Shown here one piece after another: positions 51,790-64,000 of a stretch of DNA of 64,000 nt. Made by a program: the position numbers and the translations under genes. The DNA lies in NCBI RefSeq assembly GCF_000214175.1, contig NC_015564.1:3720001-3784000 (forward strand), written 5' to 3'. Under the pieces are notes generated by a model. It did no database searches and was not told the DNA's origin. It worked only from the letters and a program-made list of their open reading frames with translations. Within the stretch, counting starts at the first letter, position 1. Each line of letters starts with the position of its first letter. The DNA is from Hoyosella subflava DQS3-9A1. GTDB taxonomy: Bacteria; Actinomycetota; Actinomycetes; Mycobacteriales; Mycobacteriaceae.

Positions 51790-53603
51790 TGCGCGTCGCC
51801 ACCCTCGACTGCATCAGTGACCTGGAACCAGTAGAAGCCGTGGCCCGGAAGGGTCAACAGGTACGGAAGCTCCCCGATCACGGGGAATCGCACGCCACCG
51901 GTGAGTTCAGTGGGCTGCCGACCCGCGTATCTGGAAAGGTCCAGTTCTACGGGCTGAGGGAACCGTGACAGGTTGTTCACGCACAACACCAGATCGTCCC
52001 CGTCGGCCGGATCGTTGTAGTGACGCAAGTACGCGAGGACGCTTGGGTTCGAGGAGCCAAGCTCGATGAACTCACCCAATCCGAAAGCGTGGTGCTGGCG
52101 CCGAATCTCAAGCATGCGGCGCGTCCAGTACAGCAGGGAGGACGCATTGTTCAGCTGCGCCTCGACGTTGACGCTCTGGTAGCCATAGACGGGGTCCGCG
52201 ATAGGCGGGAGATACATGCGCCCAGGGTTGCAAGTCGAGAAACCGGCATTGCGATCCGGAGTCCACTGCATGGGCGTGCGGACCGCATCCCGGTCCCCGA
52301 GCCAGATGTTGTCACCCATGCCGATCTCGTCGCCGTAGTACAGAACCGGAGATCCTGGCAGCGACAACAACATCGCGGTGAACAACTCCATCTGATTGAT
52401 GTCGTTGTCGAGCAGCGGCGCAAGCCGCCTGCGGATGCCGATGTTGGCCTTCATCCGCGGGTCTGTGGCGTACTCGGAGTACATATAGTCACGCTCGTCG
52501 TCGGTGACCATCTCCAGCGTCAGCTCGTCGTGGTTGCGCAGAAAGATCCCCCACTGCGCCCCAGCAGGAATGGGCGGCGTCTGTGCCAGGATCTCCGAAA
52601 TCGGATAGCGCGATTCCCGGCGGACGGCCATGAAGATGCGCGGCATGAGTGGGAAGTGGAACGCCATGTGGCACTCGTCGCCGCCCACGGCGGGGTCGCC
52701 GAAGTACGCGACAACGTCGGACGGCCACTGGTTGGCCTCCGCAAGCAGCACCCTTCCCGGGAATTCGTCGTCGACCACCTTCCGGCAGTGCTTGAGGAAC
52801 TCATGCGTGCGCGGCAGATTCTCGCAATTCGTCCCCTCCTCTTCGAACAGATACGGGACCGCATCCAGCCGGAAACCGTCGATGCCGAGGTCAAGCCAAA
52901 ACCTCAGGACATCGATCATCGCCTCACCGACCTCGGGGTTCTCATAGTTGAGGTCGGGCTGATGCGAGAAGAACCGGTGCCAGTAGAACTGACCGCGAAC
53001 GGGATCGTATGTCCAGTTCGACGACTCCGTGTCGACGAAGATTATCCGCGCGTCGGGATACCCCGTGTCAGTGTCGGACCACACGTAAAAGTCGCCGTAC
53101 GGACCGTCCGGATGATTGCGCGATTCCTGAAACCAGGGGTGAGCGTCCGAGGTGTGGTTGAGCACGAGGTCAGTGATGATCCGGATATTGCGCCGATGCG
53201 CATGCTCAAGGAGGTAGACGAAGTCATCGACGGTGCCGAACTCGGGGAGCACGGCACGGAAATCGGAAATGTCGTAGCCACCATCACGCAGGGGCGATGC
53301 GTAGAAGGGCGGCAGCCACAAGCAGTCGACGCCTAGCCATTGCAGGTAGTCAAGCTTGTCGACCAGGCCCCGCATGTCGCCGGTGCCATCGTTGTTGGAA
53401 TCGTGGAACGCGCGGACCAGTACCTCGTAGAAGACCGCGGTTTTGTACCACTCGGGTTCGCGTTTCGCCTCTCTCGCATGTGCGAACTCGTTGGCCTGCG
53501 GCTCAACCAGATGGCCGTCGTCAGTCATTTCCTCGCCGGTATGCGGAACACCCTCGAGTCCCAGGGCCGCATCGGGGCGTCGTTCGTGCGTTGGGATTGC
53601 CAT
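51786..53603 (-). CDS. treS: Trehalose synthase (maltose alpha-D-glucosyltransferase)
   Basis: A 605-residue GH13_16 enzyme interconverting trehalose and maltose. Motifs: [24 protein letters not shown] (nucleophile Asp), LLAEANQWP (Glu) and [11 protein letters not shown] (Asp), with [15 protein letters not shown] 53603 is used; ATG 53528 is possible. It is paired with mak. The GlgE/GlgB genes are not in this window. Confidence 0.96.
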
Positions 53604-53708
53604 CGCGGCACCGACTTCCCTTGATCGTTTCGCGGTCTCCCCCTACGTTGCTACCCAATCGCACGCACCGCAAGCATCTTGTGAAACATGCCGGATTCGC
53701 ACTGATAC

Positions 53709-54524
53709 CTACGCTCGTGCCCGCGCACGTTCGTCCACGAACAGCGATTGGCTCCCTCGAGCGACCGGACCGGCTATGTCGTGGATTCGCGAGTGCGCAA
53801 CCCCCGTCCCCTGACCGCCAAGCGTGGTGGTGGCTTCCAGCGCAACCCAACTGCCGACGGGTTCACGTTCAAGACTGATCGTGAGGTCGGAGTTCATGAA
53901 AACATGTGTCTCGTAGGAAACTTTCTGGCTGATGCCGTGCGCCCAGTCGGCGAGGGCCGTAAGTGTTTGCAGTGGCGTTGGGTCTTCACCAGCCACCAGC
54001 GGCCGGGTCATCGTGAGCCACGCAGTCGAGGGGCCAAGATTCCAGTCCCCGTGGACGAACCTGAGCTCCACAGCACCCGTGAACGCGCGCGGGTCAAGAA
54101 AACTTGGCATAGCGGAGATCGGGCAGTCGCCGGGCGGTGGAAGTGGTGTCTCGGCCGGAGCCGGCATAGCGCCGGCAACCGGGTCGGCAGACTGGCTACG
54201 TCGCATTCGCAGCGCGCTTGCGCGTGCTACGACCTCACCGTCCACGATTGCCGTGGCGGCGCAGGCTTGGATGCGGGCACCCGGACGGGTCACCTTCGCT
54301 GCGACCTCGACAACTGCCATTGGAGCCGGACGAAGCAACTCGATAGTGATCCGGGTCCACAGCATTGGAACTGGGTGCGGCAGACGTTCTAAGGCACGAA
54401 CAAGGACAGCTTCGAGTGCGCTGCCGTGGATGCTCCCGCCGTCCCACGGGCCGCGGGCCAGCAGCGTGGGCCGGAGAAGCGTGCCGTCGAGTTCGAAAAC
54501 CGCGCACGGGTCACTGGGCAACAT
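53709..54524 (-). CDS. TesB-like acyl-CoA thioesterase family protein
   Basis: A 271-residue double hotdog protein. The first hotdog has WDGGSIHGSALEAVLVRALE and the second ELRFVHGDWNLGPSTAWLTMT, matching TesB/4HBT_3 thioesterases. ATG 54524 overlaps the upstream DUF2236 gene by 14 bases, so both are coupled. Substrate acyl chain unknown. Confidence 0.8.
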   Translation of the reverse strand: MLPSDPCAVFELDGTLLRPTLLARGPWDGGSIHGSALEAVLVRALERLPHPVPMLWTRITIELLRPAPMAVVEVAAKVTRPGARIQACAATAIVDGEVVARASALRMRRSQSADPVAGAMPAPAETPLPPPGDCPISAMPSFLDPRAFTGAVELRFVHGDWNLGPSTAWLTMTRPLVAGEDPTPLQTLTALADWAHGISQKVSYETHVFMNSDLTISLEREPVGSWVALEATTTLGGQGTGVAHSRIHDIAGPVARGSQSLFVDERARARA

Positions 54525-55431
54525 CGATCTGTTCTTCGACGTAGTGGTTGCTGATCGATGGGGCGATCCCGATCGCCGCACCGTGCGCCGCGTATTCCTG
54601 ATTCGACGCCCAATTACGTCTGACGATCGTCCCTGATACGGAGCGCAGTTGCCGGGGCATCAAGCGGTCAACGCGACGCACAATGCTGGCGAAAGCTCGC
54701 AACCGGACCTCGTCAGCGTGAGTCCAGTCCGCGCCGAGAGTCTCCCGAAGTGCGGGTGGCAAAGTACCCACGGTAACGAAGGTTGCAAGCGGACCGACTA
54801 CGCAGTAACCGATCGGGGCCCACAACCAGCCGGGGACTCGCGGCGGAGCGGGCGGGTGGCGTAGCACGCCGAGCAGTTCCCGGGCCGTGGGGTGATTGAC
54901 GAGTCGGCGCATCGCTACTTCGTCGAGCCAGGCGACATGCGCTGCATGGTTTGCAGGCAGTGCGCGCTCCGGAATGCCGAAGGCAATTCCTGCGCGTTTC
55001 CAGGAACGGAAGACCTCTTCACGCTGCGAATCGGTCAGCGGTTCCCCAAATAGGTCCGCCGCCGTCTCACTGGCGTAAACGGCGGAAGCCAGCACCAGCC
55101 AGGAGGCTTCGGGGTCCCACGCGTGGTAGCGCCGGCCAGTATGGTCGACGCCCTGAATGCCGCGATGCAGTGCTCGCAGGTTGCGGCTGTACTCCCCCGC
55201 CTGTTCGCCCATGACGACCATGCTGAGCACAGGCCACACTGAGCGACGGAATCTTCCCCACGGGTCAGTCCTGTAGGTCGAGTACTGCCCTACACCTGCA
55301 CCAATCACCGGATGGCAGACCTGTAGCAGTAGCCCCGTTCCAACGAGCAAAAGGAACCGCCAGTCGGTAGCGAGTTCCTCTGCGATCGTCGTCGAAGGCT
55401 TCCGCACCGGCCGCTTCAGCACTGACAACAT
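54511..55431 (-). CDS. DUF2236 (oxygenase MpaB-like) protein
   Basis: A 306-residue DUF2236 protein, related to the latex-clearing-protein/MpaB group of haem oxygenases. Conserved blocks include QVCHPVIGAGVGQYSTYRTDPWGR, HRGIQGVDHTGRRYHAWDP and GTLPPALRETLG. ATG 55431, with gagggg 7 bases upstream, is chosen; ATG 55446 or longer frames are less likely. Divergent from a TetR repressor with a split palindrome, which probably controls it and the coupled thioesterase. Confidence 0.88.
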   Translation of the reverse strand: MLSVLKRPVRKPSTTIAEELATDWRFLLLVGTGLLLQVCHPVIGAGVGQYSTYRTDPWGRFRRSVWPVLSMVVMGEQAGEYSRNLRALHRGIQGVDHTGRRYHAWDPEASWLVLASAVYASETAADLFGEPLTDSQREEVFRSWKRAGIAFGIPERALPANHAAHVAWLDEVAMRRLVNHPTARELLGVLRHPPAPPRVPGWLWAPIGYCVVGPLATFVTVGTLPPALRETLGADWTHADEVRLRAFASIVRRVDRLMPRQLRSVSGTIVRRNWASNQEYAAHGAAIGIAPSISNHYVEEQIDVAQ

Positions 55432-55459
55432 TGACAGTCCCCTCATTAGTGGTAACGCT

Positions 55460-55492
55460 CGTTTCCAGAAGAGAATAACACTTCTGGAAACG
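55460..55492. promoter_or_regulatory. Split TetR operator, perfect 12-base arms
   Basis: cgtttccagaag (55460-55471) and cttctggaaacg (55481-55492) are perfect inverted arms separated by 9 AT-rich bases. They lie between the DUF2236 gene and TetR gene. The right arm ends 1 base before a possible ATG (55494). Confidence 0.8.
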
Positions 55493-55511
55493 CATGTGTC
55501 ACCATTGGGGT

Positions 55512-56201
55512 GTGGCCATCCAAAAGCGAACCTACGCCGGAGTCCCCGGCGCCGATCGCTCCCAGCAACGACGCACACAGCTCATCGAGGCTGGACTGGA
55601 ACTCATGGGATCCCAAGGTGTGGCAGCGACGACCGTCCGGGGAGTTATCAGCCAATCCGGTGTCTCGCCGAAGTACTTCTATGAGCACTTCACCAGCGTC
55701 GACGAGTTGCAGGTCGCCGTATTTGACGCAGTGATTGCCGAGGTGGAGCAGCTAGCCCTCGCCGCGCTCGCAAGCGCGCCGCGCAATGCCCGCAGCCGGA
55801 TCCGAGCGGTACTCGCCGCCATAACCGATCTGCTACTCACAGATCCGCGGAAAGGCCGCATCCTGCTCACAGAGGCGATCACCACGCCGGTGCTAGCTAC
55901 TCGTCGCCTCGCAGAAGTCACCCGGTTCTCTGGTCTCCTTGCCCACCACTCACGAACAGTCTGGCAGGGGCTCGCACACTACGAATCGACAGTGCTCACA
56001 ACCTCACATTTCGCCGTCGGCGGATATGCCGAAACTCTTGCATGGGTGCTCGAAGCTGGCGCCGACGTCGACCGTGCGCAACTTGTCGATGAGCTCACCG
56101 AACTCCTGCTGGGCACAGGAGATGCTTTTGCGCGAATTGTGCGACACCAGCGCGGCCAATCAGGTTCCGCCCCCGCGACCGCTGACGCGGGACGAACGTG
56201 A
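55512..56201 (+). CDS. TetR-family transcriptional regulator
   Basis: A TetR regulator of about 229 residues. The helix-turn-helix (TVRGVISQSGVSPKYFYEHF) is near residues 38-57. GTG 55512 is preferred to ATG 55494, which abuts the operator; 55494 would add 6 residues. It is divergent from DUF2236-thioesterase and convergent with the nitrile-hydratase-like genes. Ligand unknown, possibly an acyl-CoA or lipid. Confidence 0.87.
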   Translation: MAIQKRTYAGVPGADRSQQRRTQLIEAGLELMGSQGVAATTVRGVISQSGVSPKYFYEHFTSVDELQVAVFDAVIAEVEQLALAALASAPRNARSRIRAVLAAITDLLLTDPRKGRILLTEAITTPVLATRRLAEVTRFSGLLAHHSRTVWQGLAHYESTVLTTSHFAVGGYAETLAWVLEAGADVDRAQLVDELTELLLGTGDAFARIVRHQRGQSGSAPATADAGRT

Positions 56202-56213
56202 CGTGCCGCGTTG

Positions 56214-56585
56214 TTACGCCTCCAGTCTGGCCCGGATGCTCGCCAGTCTTTCCTGAAGTTCCGCCTCACTGATGAGGCCGCGCACCACGAGGGAATGCGC
56301 TAACGCGACGAGCTGATTCTCGGGATACGGCAGGCTGGAATACGACGATTCGGATAGGGCATCTTCCTCATCGCGTCGTTCTTTGAAATTGGGGACGCTC
56401 GTATCGCACGCGGCGTGGTCGAGAGCGTCGCACATGCCGTCGAGGCTGGTCTTCCACGGCGGCACAGGATTAGTGACGCCATACTTAGCGGCCATGCGCG
56501 GCCAGACCTGATTCCGTTCCACGATGCTTTTCAGTGGCGCGATATCGACATCGCTGATTGAGCGCGGTTCGTTCGGCGTACTCAC
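56214..56585 (-). CDS. Nitrile hydratase accessory-like small subunit
   Basis: A 123-residue protein. The C-terminal helix region (NQLVALAHSLVVRGLISEAELQ) matches the N-terminal helical domain of nitrile hydratase beta subunits and of activator proteins (NhlE/P14K type). The N-terminal half, with PPWKTSLDGMCDAL and two Cys, is not recognised. GTG 56585 follows the alpha-subunit stop by 14 bases. It may be a metallochaperone or a third subunit. Confidence 0.7.
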   Translation of the reverse strand: MSTPNEPRSISDVDIAPLKSIVERNQVWPRMAAKYGVTNPVPPWKTSLDGMCDALDHAACDTSVPNFKERRDEEDALSESSYSSLPYPENQLVALAHSLVVRGLISEAELQERLASIRARLEA

Positions 56586-56599
56586 GTGTGACTGCTCCG

Positions 56600-57307
56600 T
56601 CAGTTGGCTGGGTGGATAGCTGGACGGGTGTCGGTGATGACGTTCGTCGTTACGCCAGGCTTGGGCAGCGCAACCCCGATCAGGCAGTCGCGTGTGACAA
56701 TTTCCGCGAGCTGGTCTTCGTCCCATCCGTCGGTCCCCTCCGGACGGAGCGGCATCACCATAAATCGGTGCTTCTGGTTGGAGTCCTGCACGCGGATCGC
56801 AATATCATCGGGCAGATACAGTCCGAACTCGGCGAGCACCTGGCGCGGCCAGCGAACCAGACGCCGCCGATAGTTAGGTGTGCGATACCACTCGGGTGAA
56901 TTGCCAAGAATCGGTCGCGGGTAGCACGAGCACAGTGCGCAGACGATCACATTGTGCAGTGTTGGTGTGTCCTCGAGGATCTCAAACGCGGTGAAGTCGC
57001 TCGGCGTGCCGAAGCCGGTGGGTTCCATCCAGTCCACACCGACTTCTTTACTGGCGGCCATCGGGTCGGTGAGCGCGAGCGTTTTGAAGTCGGGGTCCAG
57101 CCACGCCCGGGCAACCAGGTTCGCGGCCGGCGTGGGGCCGATCTGCTCGGCGAACTCGGTGAACCGACGATGCTCCTCGGCGGTGAAAATGCCCTTCTCA
57201 ATGCACAGTTCGCGCAGGGCGATCTCCAGGACTTCGAAGTCGGTTATTTCGTCCACCATTGGCGCAACAGTGCGCTCGTGATCGTGATCATGATCGTGGC
57301 CGCTCAT
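56600..57307 (-). CDS. Nitrile hydratase alpha-like subunit with CALCSC motif
   Basis: A 235-residue alpha-like subunit that would hydrate nitriles to amides at a low-spin Co(III) or Fe(III) centre. The claw motif is CALCSC (Cys123, Cys126, Cys128) followed by YPRP. Typical enzymes have C(T/S)LCSC: Thr for cobalt, Ser for iron. The CSCY form points to cobalt, but Ala124 is unusual. The N-terminus is HDHDHDHE (residues 4-11), a histidine-rich metal-binding tail not typical of the family. Lies between beta and the accessory gene. Confidence 0.85.
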   Translation of the reverse strand: MSGHDHDHDHERTVAPMVDEITDFEVLEIALRELCIEKGIFTAEEHRRFTEFAEQIGPTPAANLVARAWLDPDFKTLALTDPMAASKEVGVDWMEPTGFGTPSDFTAFEILEDTPTLHNVIVCALCSCYPRPILGNSPEWYRTPNYRRRLVRWPRQVLAEFGLYLPDDIAIRVQDSNQKHRFMVMPLRPEGTDGWDEDQLAEIVTRDCLIGVALPKPGVTTNVITDTRPAIHPAN

Positions 57308-57361
57308 GGGATCCCTTTCTGACGAGGGTGCCGGATCATCGGAAACGGAAGGGACCGTCGC

Positions 57362-58201
57362 CTAGGGTGCTGCTTTCAGCCAGCGCTCGGGTAACTCCGT
57401 TTGCAGGCTGTCGTCCGTCGTGCCTGTGTAGCCATGCCACAACTCCGCCATGTTGAACCGGACGACGTAGAACCACTCCGCCTTCGCATCGGGCCGGTCC
57501 CAGGTCTCGTCCTCTGCGGCTGGGCTCTCGTACGCAACGGAAGCGATCTCCCCTTTGGCGCCGCGCACGTATTCAGGGGTGCGGGTATACAGCAGGGCGG
57601 GCAGTTCGCGCACCACCACTGGATCGCCGACCTGGAACTTCGGTTCACCGGCCTGGCCGGCATACACTTGCGGATCACCCTTGCCGACCGCATGCAAGTG
57701 GTGCTTGTTGCGTTTGACCTGGGAACCGTCACCCTCGAACTTGGGTTGCGCCGCGATCGCCTTGCCGTCGAGACCGCCCTCGTACCGGGCAGCAACCTCG
57801 GCCATCCGTTCGCTCAGCTCGCCGAGGCCAATGTGGTGTTTTTCGACAAGCACGCGAGCGACCGCCAACAGCCAGCGACCGTAGTACGGAATCCCCAGGT
57901 AGACCGCGCGCCCCACGTCGACATTGCCCATCCGGCGCCGCTCTTCCGACAACCAGATCCCGCGCCAGGCGAGCACCTCACAGATCACATAGGTGTTGTG
58001 CTCCCACACCTCGTACTGCTTGTTCTCGTACTTCATCGGCGCATCCGGTTCCCCGCCCACGTCGTGAACCGTCTTCATGTACGCGTTGAACCGCTCGTGG
58101 TCGAGGAGATCCGGAGTCGGTGCCTCCGGAATTTCCGGATAGGAGGATTTGAGCCGGGCCACCAAATCAAGACGGGCTGCACGTTCCGCCGCTGTACTCA
58201 T
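57362..58201 (-). CDS. Nitrile hydratase beta-like subunit
   Basis: A 279-residue beta-like subunit. HDVGG (46-50) corresponds to the usual beta N-terminal HDxGG, so there is an extra 45-residue extension. A helical segment with LLAVARVLVEKHHIGLGEL follows, then the SH3-like barrel (FQVGDPVVVRELP, PEYVRGAKGEI) with FNMAELWHG near the end. ATG 58201 has gggag 5 bases upstream; ATG 58213 has none. First gene of a three-gene unit. Confidence 0.85.
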   Translation of the reverse strand: MSTAAERAARLDLVARLKSSYPEIPEAPTPDLLDHERFNAYMKTVHDVGGEPDAPMKYENKQYEVWEHNTYVICEVLAWRGIWLSEERRRMGNVDVGRAVYLGIPYYGRWLLAVARVLVEKHHIGLGELSERMAEVAARYEGGLDGKAIAAQPKFEGDGSQVKRNKHHLHAVGKGDPQVYAGQAGEPKFQVGDPVVVRELPALLYTRTPEYVRGAKGEIASVAYESPAAEDETWDRPDAKAEWFYVVRFNMAELWHGYTGTTDDSLQTELPERWLKAAP

Positions 58202-58568
58202 GAAGGCTCCCATCGCTGCGAGGGAAAGGTGATGACTACTGGAGATCTGATGAGGGTCTTAGAAGACACCCGGGTGCTGTCGCATCACCCTGGGCAGGCC
58301 GATGGCCGCCATGCACGGCTGGCGACGAAGTAGCTTCGCTACAACGTTTCACAAAGACAAATTTATGCCTCATGAGCTGCTGGCGTATAGGTTTCTCAAC
58401 AAACGGTTCGAGGCAGAATGAGGGACTGGTTAGCAGTCTCATCCCGGCATCGCCGGACAGCCGGCCAGCGTCCGCTAATTCCCGGCTTGGGAACCGGGGT
58501 ATTCCGCGAGCGTCCGGCCTGCGAAAAGCGCTTACGCTGACATAAACGGAACCTCCAGGAGCAGTGCA
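58202..58568. other. 367-base divergent region, nitrile-hydratase-like / YdeI-like
   Basis: This region contains the promoter region for the nitrile-hydratase-like genes. A short hairpin gtagc-ttc-gctac lies at about 58331-58345, but no metal-box, riboswitch or regulator palindrome was recognised. No small gene is supported. Confidence 0.4.
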
Positions 58569-58994
58569 ATGACCAAGGAACGGCCTGTCGAAAACACATC
58601 CGCTTCGTCGGCAATCGTCTTCAACGGGCGCGTGCAGAAAGTCGGTGACCGGGCAATTCTGCGGTTTCCCGACAAGACGAGCGCACAACTGCCGTCGCGT
58701 GGCCAGGTCGCGGTAAAGGCCGTGTTGAATGGGCACGCCTTTGCAACGGTTGTCGAACCTGATGGCATGCGGGGCCATTGGCTTCCGGTCGAGAATTCGC
58801 TGATCGACCTTCTCGCTCTCGATGCCAACGATCCGGTGACGCTCGAAGTCGAACCGACCAAAGACTGGCCAGAGCCCGAACTGCCCGACGACTTCCGGGC
58901 CGCTCTACTCGAGGCTCCAGATATCGCAGAGGAATGGCGCACCATCACGTCGATGGCGCGCTGGGAATGGGTGCGTTGGATCAACGCCACGTAG
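58569..58994 (+). CDS. DUF1905/YdeI-like protein, interrupted by an amber codon
   Basis: A 141-residue product of a DUF1905-like N-terminal barrel and a YdeI/OmpD-type helical end (DDFRAALLEAPDIAEEW, then WEWVRWINAT). The stop TAG at 58992 falls inside the family's last region: the same frame continues with NPQTRARRVAVSISKL and RSGKRRPCC, the expected tail, to TGA at 59132. So the gene has a premature amber stop and its C-terminus is lost unless read through. Ribosome site agga before ATG. Confidence 0.8.
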   Translation: MTKERPVENTSASSAIVFNGRVQKVGDRAILRFPDKTSAQLPSRGQVAVKAVLNGHAFATVVEPDGMRGHWLPVENSLIDLLALDANDPVTLEVEPTKDWPEPELPDDFRAALLEAPDIAEEWRTITSMARWEWVRWINAT

Positions 58995-59195
58995 AACCCG
59001 CAGACGCGCGCGCGTCGCGTCGCGGTCAGCATCTCGAAACTGCGCTCTGGCAAACGACGCCCGTGCTGTTTCGATCTCTCGTCATGCACCGACCCGGAAT
59101 TGTCGAAAAGTGGCAAGCTCGCAGGCGCGTGACCAACTTGATGCCCCGAAATCGACCTCGTCGGCGCGGACCGAGCGACCATGTAGAGAGGAAGC

Positions 59196-59897
59196 GTGGC
59201 ATTGCTTCGACCGTGGGTGCTGACCGGCTTCGCCGCGCAGCTGGTGGTGCTGGCTGTCCTTGCCGGCTTCGTCCACGTGAGCGCGCTGGGATGGTTGGTC
59301 GGACTCGCATTCAGTGCCGTGGTCAACATAGTGGTCGCGAAGGGTCTTGACCGGGAGGGTCTTACTATTCTCGGGCCGGCGAACCAGGTCACGCTCGCGA
59401 GGGCCATCCTGGTCGGCGGCGTCGCCGCGCTGGTGGTCAGCGGATTCAGCACTGACATCCCGCCCGCCCTGCTCGTAGGCCTCACTGTGCCCGCCCTGAT
59501 CCTCGACGGAGTGGACGGCTGGGTCGCACGGCGCACCCGGTCGGTGTCGGCGACGGGCGCTCTCTTCGACCAGGAAGTCGACGCATTCCTGATACTCGTC
59601 CTGAGCATCCAAGTCAGCAGAACGCTCGGCGCCTGGGTGTTGGTGATCGGAGTGGCCCGCTATGCGCTCTGGGCCGCCGAGCGGCTGTGGCCATGGCTAC
59701 GAAAACCGGTACCGCCACGCTACTGGGGCAAGGTGGTGGCGGCGGTGCAAGGCATCGCGCTGATCATCGCGGTCGCGGATGTGCTGCCGCCGGTCGCCAA
59801 CATCATCATCGTCGGCGTTGCGCTGGCGCTGTTGTGTGAGTCGTTCGGTCGCTACATATTCTGGCTTTGGCGGAAGCGACCCACGAAATCGAGCTGA
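59196..59897 (+). CDS. CDP-alcohol phosphatidyltransferase family protein
   Basis: A 233-residue membrane enzyme with about six transmembrane helices. The active-site motif D-x2-D-G-x2-A-R-x8-G-x3-D-x3-D is present as DGVDGWVARR...GALFDQEVD. It moves a phosphatidyl group from CDP-diacylglycerol to an alcohol acceptor. Its end overlaps the convergent methyltransferase by 46 bases. The acceptor is unknown; see the right-edge cluster. Confidence 0.9.
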   Translation: MALLRPWVLTGFAAQLVVLAVLAGFVHVSALGWLVGLAFSAVVNIVVAKGLDREGLTILGPANQVTLARAILVGGVAALVVSGFSTDIPPALLVGLTVPALILDGVDGWVARRTRSVSATGALFDQEVDAFLILVLSIQVSRTLGAWVLVIGVARYALWAAERLWPWLRKPVPPRYWGKVVAAVQGIALIIAVADVLPPVANIIIVGVALALLCESFGRYIFWLWRKRPTKSS

Positions 59898-60754
59898 TGC
59901 GCGATGTAGACCAACTCCCCCGCGGCCAGTTGCCGACGGCGCTCGGCCAGCCAATCGGCAAGCTCCGCGGCTCCCACCCAATCCTGGCGAACCCGTAAAG
60001 CGTCCCGGATCGTGTCGAGGATGATGCGCACGAAGTAGGCCTCTTCGGCCGGATAGCTCCCGTCCGGGCCCGGGCACACAACCCAGTCCGACGACCCTGC
60101 TGCCAGCGCGGGCGCCCCCGCGTCCCGCAGGTAGTGAAACAGCCGTCGACCCGTGCGGCTTTCCCCCGCCGGACGTCCGTAGCGGACTCGCTCGTCCATG
60201 TCGCGGTGATACGCCCGCAGGACCTGGTCGTCGGCGGAGTGAGAGGGCTCGAAGATGCTTTCACCGTCGTAGTTGATCGTGAACCAGTAGACGCCGCCGG
60301 GGACGAGAAGCTGCAGCAAGCCGGGCAGGACCGTCGGCACGTCCACCAAGTCGAGGACGGCGTTGGCGATCAGCACATCCGCCCGCACCTCGTGAGCGGC
60401 CTCCACGTAACTCCCGAGCTCGGCCTGCACGAGGCGCACCCGAAGATCGCCCACCTGAAGCCCATCAGGCAGTAATTCGCTGCGCAGACCGCGAGCGGCC
60501 GCCCAATCGGACAACCATTGGCGAGAAGAATCCAGCAACTCCCGATCCGTGTCCAACAAAATGTACTCGCCGACGCTGACCACTCCCCAGTCCATCAGGC
60601 GGGCCACCATCGTCCCCAGCCCAGCGCCGACCTCCAGCACTCGCGGCGCATCCGCGGGCATCAGCCGCCGCAACTCGTCCAGGACGTGCCGGTTGAGCGC
60701 CCGGTCGTCGACGGTCGTCTTCGCCGCCAGATAGCGGCCATAGTCAAAGGTCAT
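59852..60754 (-). CDS. SAM-dependent methyltransferase, right-edge cluster
   Basis: A 300-residue class I methyltransferase. Motif I is VLEVGAGLGTMVARL; the acidic loop EYILLDTD and later DVLIANAVLDLV follow. It is the last gene of the reverse-strand cluster and overlaps the adjacent methyltransferase by 4 bases. Substrate unknown. Confidence 0.85.
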   Translation of the reverse strand: MTFDYGRYLAAKTTVDDRALNRHVLDELRRLMPADAPRVLEVGAGLGTMVARLMDWGVVSVGEYILLDTDRELLDSSRQWLSDWAAARGLRSELLPDGLQVGDLRVRLVQAELGSYVEAAHEVRADVLIANAVLDLVDVPTVLPGLLQLLVPGGVYWFTINYDGESIFEPSHSADDQVLRAYHRDMDERVRYGRPAGESRTGRRLFHYLRDAGAPALAAGSSDWVVCPGPDGSYPAEEAYFVRIILDTIRDALRVRQDWVGAAELADWLAERRRQLAAGELVYIAHQLDFVGRFRQSQNM

Positions 60755-61482
60755 TTCTCGGCCACCATCGCGAACTTGCGCACCCGCCCGCTGCCCAGCC
60801 AGTCACTCCACAGCTCATGGGACGTGATCAGATCGGCGGTAGCCTGTGTCCCGATCTCAGCGGCGATCTCACTGCGATGCGCTCGATAACTGAGAAACAG
60901 CGCGGTCGCCATCGCGTGATGGGAGGCGGTGCAGTCCTGCTGCCAGGTCACGGTCAGCCCAGCGTTGCCCAGCACGGCCGTCAGTTCCGGAAGCTCGATA
61001 GGCCAGACCGTATCGGCGGCGGGCATCCGCTCGCGCTCCTGGTGGGTCAGCGGGCGGCCTTCCTCGACCGTGAAGGCGAAACGTCCACCCGGCTCCAGCA
61101 CGCGCACCACTTCACGAACGAGGGCGTCTTTGTCGCGGAAAGCGAGCATCGTCTCCAGCAGAAAAACCACCTCGAAGTTGCCATCGGGCAGCGGCGGGAT
61201 GTCGATCTGCTCGAAACGGCACGGTAGGTCTTCGGCCCGCTCCCGTGCGGTGGACAGTGAGCTAGCGGAGCGATCGATGCCCAAGTAGTTGCACCCGAAC
61301 TCCGCGCTGATCATCCGGCCGGGGCCAGCGACCCCGCAGCACAGATCGAGCACTGAGACGCCGAGACCGACCCGGGCCTGGCGAGCCAGCTGCCGGACCT
61401 CGCCCGCCGACACAAAGCTCTCCTGGCCCACATACTCGGCCGCGGGGAAGGCAGACGCCCGCGCCCGTTCCAGCGCGCTCAC
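60751..61482 (-). CDS. SAM-dependent methyltransferase, right-edge cluster
   Basis: A 243-residue class I methyltransferase. Motif I is VLDLCCGVAGPGRMIS, with YLGIDRS and VVFLLETMLAF, similar to UbiE/cyclopropane-type Methyltransf_11 proteins. GTG 61482 overlaps the preceding stop (GTGA). The frame is open to 61575 upstream but the overlap decides it. Substrate unknown. Confidence 0.85.
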   Translation of the reverse strand: MSALERARASAFPAAEYVGQESFVSAGEVRQLARQARVGLGVSVLDLCCGVAGPGRMISAEFGCNYLGIDRSASSLSTARERAEDLPCRFEQIDIPPLPDGNFEVVFLLETMLAFRDKDALVREVVRVLEPGGRFAFTVEEGRPLTHQERERMPAADTVWPIELPELTAVLGNAGLTVTWQQDCTASHHAMATALFLSYRAHRSEIAAEIGTQATADLITSHELWSDWLGSGRVRKFAMVAEK

Positions 61483-62168
61483 GTGGCGAAGCGCGCTGAG
61501 AGCGCATAGCGCAACAGGACGACGTCGCCGATCTGACGCGTTTCGGCAAGCGTGGCGCGGTGGTCCGGATTCCACGGGAACTGTCCGTCGCCGACGAGGC
61601 GGCAGCCTCGTGAATCACCGACGAAGAACGGCGCCACGACTAGTTGCAGCTCATCCGCCAGACCAGCCGTGAGGAACTGAGTGAGGATCGTTCGTCCGCC
61701 CTCGACCATCAACCGGCGAACCCCTCGGTCGCCCAAATCGCTGATCAGCCACTGCATGTCAACGCCGTCACCCGCATCGACGACCGTGGCCACCGATTCG
61801 AGCCGTCGGGCCGCCTCTGTTGCGCTGGCCTTCGCGCAGTAGACGATCTTGTCGGCGGGACCGCAAGTGAAGAAGTTCGCGGCGGCGTCTAGGAGACCGC
61901 GCCGGGTTACCGTGACCTTGATCGGCGATGGCGACAACCCTCTTGCGACTCGCTGTTCCCGACGTTCGGCTGATCGGACCAGCAGCCTGGGGTTGTCGTT
62001 GCGGATGGTGTTCGCGCCGACGAGGATCGCATCGCAGGATGCCCGAACATCGTCGACCCGGTCGAAGTCGGCGTCATTGGACAGCAGAAGGCGTGGAGCT
62101 GTTGCGGTGTCGAGGTAGCCGTCGAGCGACATGCTGCAACTGAGCAGTGTGTAGGGACGTTCAGCCAT
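61479..62168 (-). CDS. RibD C-terminal/dihydrofolate-reductase-like reductase
   Basis: A 229-residue NADPH reductase of the RibD_C (pyrimidine/pterin reductase) family. Motifs: SCSMSLDGYLD, DAILVGANTIRNDNPRL and LMVEGGRTILTQFL. Such stand-alone domains reduce riboflavin precursors, pterins or similar rings. ATG 62168 overlaps the neighbour's stop by 8 bases. Confidence 0.88.
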   Translation of the reverse strand: MAERPYTLLSCSMSLDGYLDTATAPRLLLSNDADFDRVDDVRASCDAILVGANTIRNDNPRLLVRSAERREQRVARGLSPSPIKVTVTRRGLLDAAANFFTCGPADKIVYCAKASATEAARRLESVATVVDAGDGVDMQWLISDLGDRGVRRLMVEGGRTILTQFLTAGLADELQLVVAPFFVGDSRGCRLVGDGQFPWNPDHRATLAETRQIGDVVLLRYALSARFAT

Positions 62169-63030
62169 TCGCGGACGACCCTTCGAGGAGTTCACCAGAT
62201 CTCTGCAGCCGTCGATGTGGGACCAACAACATGATCGCACCGGGAAGTGCTGCTGCGATGGTGAATACGCCAAATGCGGTGGAGACGGCAAGCCCTTGCG
62301 CGCCGCCCAGCCCGGCCGCTCCGAACGCCCACACGGCCGCGCCCTCGCGCGGTCCCCAGCCGCCGACATTGACCGGAAGTGCCGCCACCACCAACACCAG
62401 CAAGGTCAGGGGCAGAAGGTGCGCCATCGAGACGTCAACTCCAACGGTGTGGGCGGCGAGGACGAAGGTCGCGGCGTGACCCACCACGACGGCTATTGAA
62501 GCAAGCACGATTCCCGGCCACGCGCGCGGTACGAGGCCGAACCGCCACACCACCGCAATCAGCCCGACGAGGACAACAGAGACTATGGCAAGCACCGCCA
62601 CAGGCACCGGGGACGGCAGAACGGCAAGCGCCACGACGGTCAGCGAAATCAACACGAGTTGACCGGCGACGCGTTCCTCCACGACCGCTCGTCCCGCACG
62701 CGGCACAGTGCCGACATCCAAACCATGCCGCACGGCGCGGTGAACGTCGCCGAGTACACCGCCGGGGAGCGCGATATTGAGGAACTGCGACTTGTAGTAG
62801 GCGGCAACGGCATCCCGCATGGGAAGTTTGAGGGCGAGGCCGTCTGCCACGAGCCGCCACCGCCACGCTGAACACACCGTGGTGGCGAGGGCGATTGTCG
62901 CCGCGATGGCGATCGACGGAATGCTGACCGCCTGAAAGCCCGCCACAAACGGTCCGGTACCGAACTGAACCACCAGTAGGACGAGGATCGCGACAGCGAC
63001 CGCGACCTGTAGGAAAACGCGCACTTTCAT
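62161..63030 (-). CDS. Lysylphosphatidylglycerol synthase TM-region (YbhN) family protein
   Basis: A 289-residue membrane protein of eight transmembrane helices, of the LPG-synthase flippase family (YbhN/UPF0104). Key motifs: RWRLVADGL, YYKSQFLNIALPGGVLGD and LPVNVGGWGPREGA. No lysyl-transferase domain. These proteins often sit with glycosyltransferases and probably move a glycolipid. ATG 63030 overlaps the glycosyltransferase stop by 3 bases. Confidence 0.88.
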   Translation of the reverse strand: MKVRVFLQVAVAVAILVLLVVQFGTGPFVAGFQAVSIPSIAIAATIALATTVCSAWRWRLVADGLALKLPMRDAVAAYYKSQFLNIALPGGVLGDVHRAVRHGLDVGTVPRAGRAVVEERVAGQLVLISLTVVALAVLPSPVPVAVLAIVSVVLVGLIAVVWRFGLVPRAWPGIVLASIAVVVGHAATFVLAAHTVGVDVSMAHLLPLTLLVLVVAALPVNVGGWGPREGAAVWAFGAAGLGGAQGLAVSTAFGVFTIAAALPGAIMLLVPHRRLQRSGELLEGSSANG

Positions 63031-64000
63031 CCGGCGAGTACCTCGGCAACTCGCTCGGTGGTTGCCTGCCATGTGGGCAGCGACCTCCTGCGGTCCCGTG
63101 CCGCGCTGCGGAGCCGGTGACGGAGCTGAGAATCCTGCAACCAGCGAGCCAATTCTGCGGCCAGTGCGCCGGCGTCACCCAGCGGTACAAACAGGCCAGG
63201 CGAAGTACCGTCAGCGGCGGTACCGACGGCCTCGGGGATGCCGCCCACCTCGGACGCCACCACGGGAACGCCCCGGGCAAGCGCCTCGCAGATCACCATT
63301 CCGTACGTCTCGCTCCGCGATGCCAGCACGAGTAGATCGGCAGTGGCGTACTTCTTCGAAACGGCATCTGTGTCGAGAGCCCCGGTGAAGGTGACCCGAC
63401 CGGCGATCCGCGAGGTGTGCAACTGCTGCCGCAGACGATCGACGAAGACGGGTTCACGATCCAGCGGACCGGCGAGGGTGCAATGCCATGACAGTTCGGC
63501 GATGCGGTCCAGCGCGTCGAGCAGAAGGTCGTGACCCTTGTGTTCGGCGACTGTCGCCACGCACAACAGCTGTCGCCCCTCCGGACTTCCACATGCGAGT
63601 TCAGCGGAGTCCACGCCGGGATGGGCCACGTGCACGCAACCGGGCTCCAGACCGTACTCGGCCAGCAGCTTCTCCCGCGTCCAGCGGCTGGTAGTGACGA
63701 TTGAGTCGGCTACCCAAAGCACTTCGCGCTCAAGCTGGTTCTCGGGGAGCATGTGCACCAGCACAACCAGCCGAAGGCGTCTGGCCGCCGACACAAGAAC
63801 CTGCGGCATGGCAGAGACGATGATGCCGTCGACGAGCACCACCGAGTCGTCCGGAATCTCGGCCGTCACCTCGGTGACTTCAACACCCTCGGGCCGCGGC
63901 CAGCAGCCCGCGACCGGCTGGACGCATACCTGCCACCCCAGCCGGGTGAGCCCCTCCGCGATCCGACGGTCGTAGTAATTGCCGCCGCTCGGACGGGCTG
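63027..64000 (-). CDS. Glycosyltransferase family 4 protein, 5' end beyond window
   Basis: A GT4-type retaining glycosyltransferase, cut by the window edge. The frame stays open from 63869 to the edge, with PSGGNYYDRRIAEGLTRLGW as its start region (GGNYYDRR is the N-terminal glycine loop). Donor-site motifs are VATVAEHKGHDLLLDAL and the EX7E region YGMVICEALARGVPVVASEVGG. First visible gene of a reverse-strand cluster. Confidence 0.9.
   Translation of the reverse strand, partial: ARPSGGNYYDRRIAEGLTRLGWQVCVQPVAGCWPRPEGVEVTEVTAEIPDDSVVLVDGIIVSAMPQVLVSAARRLRLVVLVHMLPENQLEREVLWVADSIVTTSRWTREKLLAEYGLEPGCVHVAHPGVDSAELACGSPEGRQLLCVATVAEHKGHDLLLDALDRIAELSWHCTLAGPLDREPVFVDRLRQQLHTSRIAGRVTFTGALDTDAVSKKYATADLLVLASRSETYGMVICEALARGVPVVASEVGGIPEAVGTAADGTSPGLFVPLGDAGALAAELARWLQDSQLRHRLRSAARDRRRSLPTWQATTERVAEVLAG

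Follow-up and report, generated by a model that had tools for sequence, protein, structure and literature searches.

What do three adjacent genes of Hoyosella subflava DQS3-9A1 specify, when the second of them carries a nitrile hydratase-type cysteine claw with an unexpected alanine (CALCSC) and starts with a run of alternating histidine and aspartate residues? The genes lie in a window of 64,000 nucleotides, the whole stretch of DNA analysed here (NC_015564.1, positions 3,720,001 to 3,784,000), from a genome of 4.86 Mb in 3 contigs. An initial annotation made from the letters alone had described a three-gene cluster of nitrile hydratase (NHase) type with a CALCSC claw and an HD start, and as literal statements about three minus-strand genes these hold. 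The cluster very probably represents a self-contained thiocyanate hydrolase (SCNase) operon, scnBA (fused)-scnC-activator, of this actinobacterium, and a candidate unknown metalloenzyme is thereby replaced by a named one. SCNase is a known enzyme type, and since actinobacterial members are well represented in a published SCNase tree (PMC10098168), its presence in this phylum is not news. What is new here is a fused-subunit operon with a claw alanine found across the lineage.

Gene layout, subunits and probable activator

The features are collected in Table 1. The order of transcription is the 279-residue, the 235-residue and the 123-residue gene, with intergenic gaps of 54 and 14 bases. The gamma protein begins MSGHDHDHDHE and its claw stretch reads VCALCSCYPRP. 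The gamma protein of Hoyosella altamirensis (L032) is 99% identical to it, and another genome of the genus (G439) holds a gene (L116) with start and scores equal to those of L032.

Table 1. Coordinates, in the window, of the genes and motifs of the scn operon
Feature	Position	Strand	Remarks
scnB-scnA fusion, SCNase beta (about 1-145) and alpha (about 164-279)	57362..58201	-	279 aa, ATG at 58201
scnC, SCNase gamma, catalytic, NHase-alpha-like	56600..57307	-	235 aa; 2dd4_C match, TIGR03887
His-Asp tail of scnC, SGHDHDHDHE	57275..57304	-	tail of similar kind in 2dd4_C
CALCSC claw codons of scnC	56924..56941	-	longer pattern CxLCSCYPRP at 56913-56941
Claw of scnC, C123-A124-L125-C126-S127-C128-Y129-P130-R131			translation, conserved columns
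Putative P15K-like SCNase activator, shortened beta-N paralogue	56214..56585	-	123 aa, GTG at 56585

The gamma protein scores 390.5 bits against TIGR03887, the NCBI model for SCNase gamma, and passes its cut-off of 291.45. The cut-off was exceeded by all eight of the SCNase-clade relatives scanned and by neither of the two outgroup proteins scanned. Among solved (PDB) structures the best match is the SCNase gamma chain 2dd4_C (2.9e-109), the best NHase reaching 2e-53. For comparative purposes 210 loci were collected, 209 of which match the window gamma; their scores show a gap, with 33 at or below 199 bits and 176 at or above 322, the latter reducing to 161 distinct proteins. This sample leans towards actinobacteria and towards genes sharing peptides with the window protein, part of it having come from the matches listed in a six-probe scan.

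Residues 10-143 of the 279-residue chain correspond to 12-145 of the SCNase beta chain 2dd4_B (1.2e-41) and residues 164-277 to 12-125 of the alpha chain 2dd4_A (3.3e-30), by comparison with 9.3e-10 for the best NHase beta match; the chain is thus a beta-alpha fusion. In terms of Pfam it contains NHase_beta_N (42-152) and NHase_beta_C (182-276). The 45-residue extension that had been ascribed to this chain exists, in that 41 residues precede NHase_beta_N, but it is no peculiarity, being the ordinary N-terminus of an SCNase beta subunit. Of the 161 distinct SCNases, 108 have the fused arrangement and 52 have separate beta and alpha genes, one being undecided. A count of beta-chain arginine motifs by regular expression was dropped because some of its matches possibly derive from the activator chain, and 15 of the 161 rows misfit the second expression. 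A man-made beta-alpha fusion NHase, which still required its activator for full cobalt loading (PMC4709657), would seem a useful parallel to the natural fusion. Judged by titles and the starts of abstracts, none of the open-licence papers found takes fused SCNases of actinobacteria as its topic.

The third gene had been described as a beta-type helical domain joined to an unfamiliar half, and so as a possible additional subunit. The first part of this stands: NHase_beta_N is its only Pfam match, a weak one (22.6 bits, cut-off 21.5) via its residues 55-118. Four homologues beside other scnC genes behave in similar fashion, two passing (34.0 and 21.6 bits), that of Thiobacillus thioparus DSM 505 falling under the cut-off with 16.0, and one giving no match. 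The second part does not, for by position and homology the gene appears to specify an SCNase-type activator and not an extra subunit of a new kind. P15K is said, in the 2006 work of Kataoka, to be the SCNase activator; the homologue from strain DSM 505 stands in here for P15K of strain THI115. In DSM 505 a 141-residue homologue, 45% identical to the window activator over the aligned stretch, follows scnB, scnA and scnC in that order. A homologue lies at the same locus and on the same strand as scnC in 159 of the 161 distinct SCNases (156 under a stricter filter requiring a downstream position and 90-200 residues), and was flagged in none of the 33 NHase-like outgroup loci, 21 of which are short stretches of at most about 3.5 kb. 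A structure model built from 45 sequences (pLDDT 85.8, pTM 0.77) is likest residues 58-144 of SCNase beta. Foldseek with this model returned 16 matches, none at E <= 0.001. In a comparison with 73 chains its top match was SCNase beta (Z 6.5, rmsd 4.7 over 86 residues), and ranks 1-14 all went to SCNase and NHase beta chains, though such Z values are middling for a helical protein. P14K, the activator of Co-type NHase, forms a complex with the catalytic subunit which takes part in cobalt insertion (PMC3511329).

The resemblance of the third protein to the beta N-terminal domain, and the fact that its gene travels with scnC, would also suit a structural subunit. We consider this very unlikely, as the alpha, beta and gamma chains of the solved SCNase are already accounted for by the other two genes, and a review draws the T. 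thioparus SCNase cluster as three subunit genes followed by the activator (PMC7193024). As drawn there the subunit order is alpha, beta, gamma; in the DSM 505 genome used here it is beta, alpha, gamma.

The claw alanine and the histidine-rich tail

With the third gene taken as an activator, the claw remains as the feature on which the initial annotation laid most weight. A DNA pattern for CxLCSCYPRP was run over 401 genomes of the family, and 113 of these gave a match, one each; all 113 loci are in the sample and all belong to its upper score group. The second claw residue is Ala in 59, Thr in 45, Ser in eight and Gly in one. Among the 161 distinct SCNase gammas the corresponding numbers are 80, 70, 10 and one, and 79 of the 80 Ala proteins accompany a fused beta-alpha chain, the last being on a stretch too short to tell. 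CALCSC is therefore not anomalous: of the SCNase genes recovered from this family, more carry alanine at this position than any other residue. Nor is it a sequencing error, a possibility which had been raised, because the separately sequenced H. altamirensis (L032) shares the alanine with half of the distinct gammas. In a wider survey of 396 genomes from across the phylum nine exceeded the TIGR03887 cut-off and 51 had any match, as against none of 14 control genomes. Searches of the literature for the text string CALCSC gave, among the matches listed, only unrelated uses.

C123, L125, C126, S127, C128, Y129 and R131 are invariant in all 161 distinct SCNase gammas. At position 124 the window gamma has Ala where the solved SCNase has Thr, which we counted against the SCNase reading. 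The printed motifs are CSLCSCT for iron and CTLCSCY for cobalt enzymes (PMC2770081, PMC2667541). CALCSCY keeps the tyrosine half of the cobalt motif. In the 2004 study of Miyanaga on the NHase of Pseudonocardia thermophila, T109S reportedly resembled the wild type and Y114T lost cobalt. The conserved tyrosine, taken with this behaviour, argues for cobalt and for a tolerant second claw position. Within SCNases the Thr/Ser letter of the claw says little about the metal, given that alanine outnumbers every other residue among the genes recovered from one large bacterial family.

On a quick tree calculated with the claw column left out, the residue changed at least five times; the number of origins of the alanine is not fixed because many forks are open. 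Within the Ala rows the drawing of this tree, with its many open forks, can be read as showing Thr regained twice and Gly arising once, which suggests a tolerant site. Two more ambitious readings can be weighed against these data. The first holds that the second residue is little constrained, with several moves among Thr, Ala, Ser and Gly, and that the fused Ala enzymes together with the CSLCSCY enzymes of Nocardia may make up a separate branch of SCNases in mycobacteria and their relatives, one that scavenges nitrogen and departs from the rest in its metal or in the oxidation of its claw; we regard it as unlikely. The second, that the Ala claw alters metal or substrate in an SCNase-like enzyme and so marks a functionally distinct subfamily, could draw on the number of Ala proteins and on their near-complete restriction to the fused type (79 of 80), but strikes us as highly improbable. 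Within the fused type no further gamma column separates Ala from Thr proteins (the test being more than 85% of one residue in the 80 Ala rows and more than 70% of another in 18 Thr rows), the repeated changes and apparent returns to Thr suggest tolerance, subject to the open forks, and Tyr129 of the cobalt motif (PMC2770081) is kept throughout.

Several minor variants were observed. Ten distinct gammas possess CSLCSCY, half iron- and half cobalt-type in its letters, and lack a His-rich tail; the named ones are from Nocardia (L010, L067, L068, L069, L155, L158, L159, L165, L168, L171). The single SCNase gamma with a glycine claw, CGLCSC (L134), passes TIGR03887 with 387.3 bits. In another genome of the family (G150:C1:1825330-1825719) the gamma match is broken into three segments that differ in frame, possibly the remnant of a decayed gene.

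The HD start had been taken as a novel feature and a possible metal-delivery tag. It is not special to the window, as the alignment with the solved gamma chain 2dd4_C begins within that protein's own HDHDHDH tail. At least four histidines within the 25 residues preceding the core were found in 67 of 79 Ala-fused, six of 18 Thr-fused, none of 10 Ser-fused and 20 of 52 Thr-split proteins, in addition to the one Ala protein of undecided arrangement and the one Gly protein. His-rich starts also occur in 24 of the 33 outgroup proteins (counted over 36 residues), in a sample which is partly biased towards tails since HDHDHDHE was one of the six scan probes. The His-rich tail is thus common, though not universal, in SCNases. 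In the fused NHases of eukaryotes a histidine-rich segment lies between the subunits (PMC3323583).

Relation to nitrile hydratases and other known systems

On the same quick tree, which holds SCNase and NHase-like rows, the 161 SCNases form one clade (SH-aLRT 100 for its branch), apart from the 33 NHase-like rows. Seven columns of the window gamma (P96, T97 and G100-D104) constitute an SCNase insert at which all 33 outgroup rows have gaps, and R142, R148, K179 and W195 are found in none of them. The arginine behind the claw is, by comparison, not unique to SCNases: the outgroup has Arg in 20 rows and Trp in 13, and 3vyg, a chain named as SCNase gamma, likewise has Trp at the position of Arg131. 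The outgroup includes an NHase-like clade (L012-L022, L024-L026, L029, L031, L088-L090), most members of which have split beta halves, and one of them (L013) passes the NHase alpha model. The genome of H. subflava holds a second, short match to NHase alpha (24.1 bits); no other full NHase alpha-like gene was found in it.

The NHase-like label of the initial annotation survives in so far as the Pfam domains NHase_alpha and NHase_beta are present in the gamma protein and the fused chain, but it was the SCNase gamma model that was passed. A nitrile hydratase with an atypical claw that makes amides from organic nitriles, an idea to which the shared superfamily and the His-rich starts of NHase-like proteins might point, merits next to no credence, given the insert, the place of the window gamma within the SCNase clade, and scores under the cut-offs of both NHase models (208.2 bits against 249.85 for TIGR01323, alpha; 84.1 against 152.2 for TIGR03888, beta), on which this identity is rejected. 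The suggestion of a different substrate, made by comparison with SCNase, was probably right in that an ordinary nitrile is not meant; the features on which it was built are ordinary for SCNase.

As an SCNase operon, the cluster has its closest solved relative in the T. thioparus enzyme (2dd4 A, B and C; the DSM 505 locus is L082). The gamma alignment runs from the HD tail as far as residue 225, and the beta and alpha domains, the Cys, Ser, Tyr and Arg of the claw and the activator homologue behind scnC are shared. The two differ in the beta-alpha fusion of the window operon and in the Thr of the T. thioparus claw. The DSM 505 genes are flanked by an ABC transporter set, a LysR-type gene and a cyanase-like ORF (read by eye), which are absent from the five scanned neighbours of the window operon. 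Organic nitriles are the substrates of the Co-type NHases (P. thermophila, 1ire and others). These are related through the claw and the overall chains, but lack the SCNase insert and, in the aligned chain 4ob1, show Trp at the Arg position behind the claw. In Mycobacterium smegmatis the adjacent genes msmeg_6266 and msmeg_6267 are likened to the window genes by their published names, SCNase beta and gamma (PMC4617892, PMC11001197); an alpha gene goes unmentioned in the passages in question, consistent with a beta-alpha fusion.

Proposed function and genome surroundings

What the sequence data show is homology, the order of the genes, their fusion, conservation of motifs and co-occurrence; by analogy with the family we infer a metal, a claw chemistry, a substrate and a role as follows. 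A mononuclear, non-corrin Co(III) would sit in the C-x-L-C-S-C claw of gamma, and two of the claw cysteines would be oxidised once cobalt has been inserted with the help of the P15K-like activator. The oxidised cysteines would in turn be held by arginines from the fused beta/alpha chain, and the anionic substrate site would be marked by Arg131, which follows the claw (YPRP). Thiocyanate and water would yield carbonyl sulfide (COS) and ammonia, the known products of SCNases; the title of Katayama's 1992 paper, cited in PMC5458468, names COS. The role would probably be to win nitrogen from thiocyanate, the COS being taken over by other enzymes, and possibly to detoxify thiocyanate. No dedicated COS hydrolase was found in the genome: the one Pro_CA gene found matches carbonic anhydrase 2a5v at 297.5 bits, but COS hydrolase 3vqj at only 26.5 bits. 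Use of thiocyanate by mycobacteria and their kin would be a modest point for nitrogen and sulfur cycling.

In M. smegmatis msmeg_6266 and msmeg_6267 were raised 3.68- and 3.42-fold in nitrogen- as against carbon-limited chemostats (PMC4617892), and in a PII mutant the rises were 2.37- and 2.35-fold (PMC11001197), a response of those genes that we count in favour of the proposed reading. The main text of the M. smegmatis GlnR regulon paper contains neither thiocyanate nor these gene names (PMC3662644). Upstream of 107 fused-type operons a strict GlnR-like box occurred once, against twice in the reversed control; for a loose box the numbers were 29 and 24, so that nitrogen control is not supported by the sequence here. 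The open-licence literature gave nothing on thiocyanate together with Hoyosella. Scans for promoters and terminators yielded no excess over shuffled sequence, and Rfam no match above the gathering score over positions 52000-64000.

The initial annotation noted the lack of an adjoining cobalt transporter, amidase or nitrilase, and the five scanned neighbours indeed include none. They are unrelated genes, namely TetR, mpaB-like, acyl-CoA thioesterase, DUF1905/OmdA and CDP-alcohol transferase. In 33 fused-type loci homologues of TetR were found in three, of the thioesterase in two and of the mpaB-like gene in none, while DUF1905 and the CDP-alcohol transferase each occurred in one, that of the sister genome L032. 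The 25 most widespread ORF clusters were listed for 48 SCNase loci, 33 fused and 15 split, each exceeding 9 kb. Every listed cluster with fused-type members maps to the scn genes themselves, including two that run antisense and are probably shadow frames; loci of the split type have additional gene families in common. A cobalt transporter, CbtA (229.9 bits), is encoded far from the operon (C3:351911), and no NicO or CbiM transporter was found in the genome.

Two alphaproteobacterial plasmid loci (L213, L214) have scnC with transposase genes nearby and lie near cobalt or nickel uptake genes. In these plasmids, of Roseomonas and Azospirillum, scnC is near annotated CbtA/CbtB or HupE/UreJ as well as TauE/SafE exporters, and each copy lies behind an 852-base SH3-like gene, the size of a beta-alpha fusion. 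Lastly, a region outside the window (L212, G000:C3:4392535) contains at 1050-1737 on the minus strand two small overlapping or tandem frames which by eye resemble nitrile-hydratase-leader (NHLP) RiPP precursors, beside an ABC exporter-like ORF.
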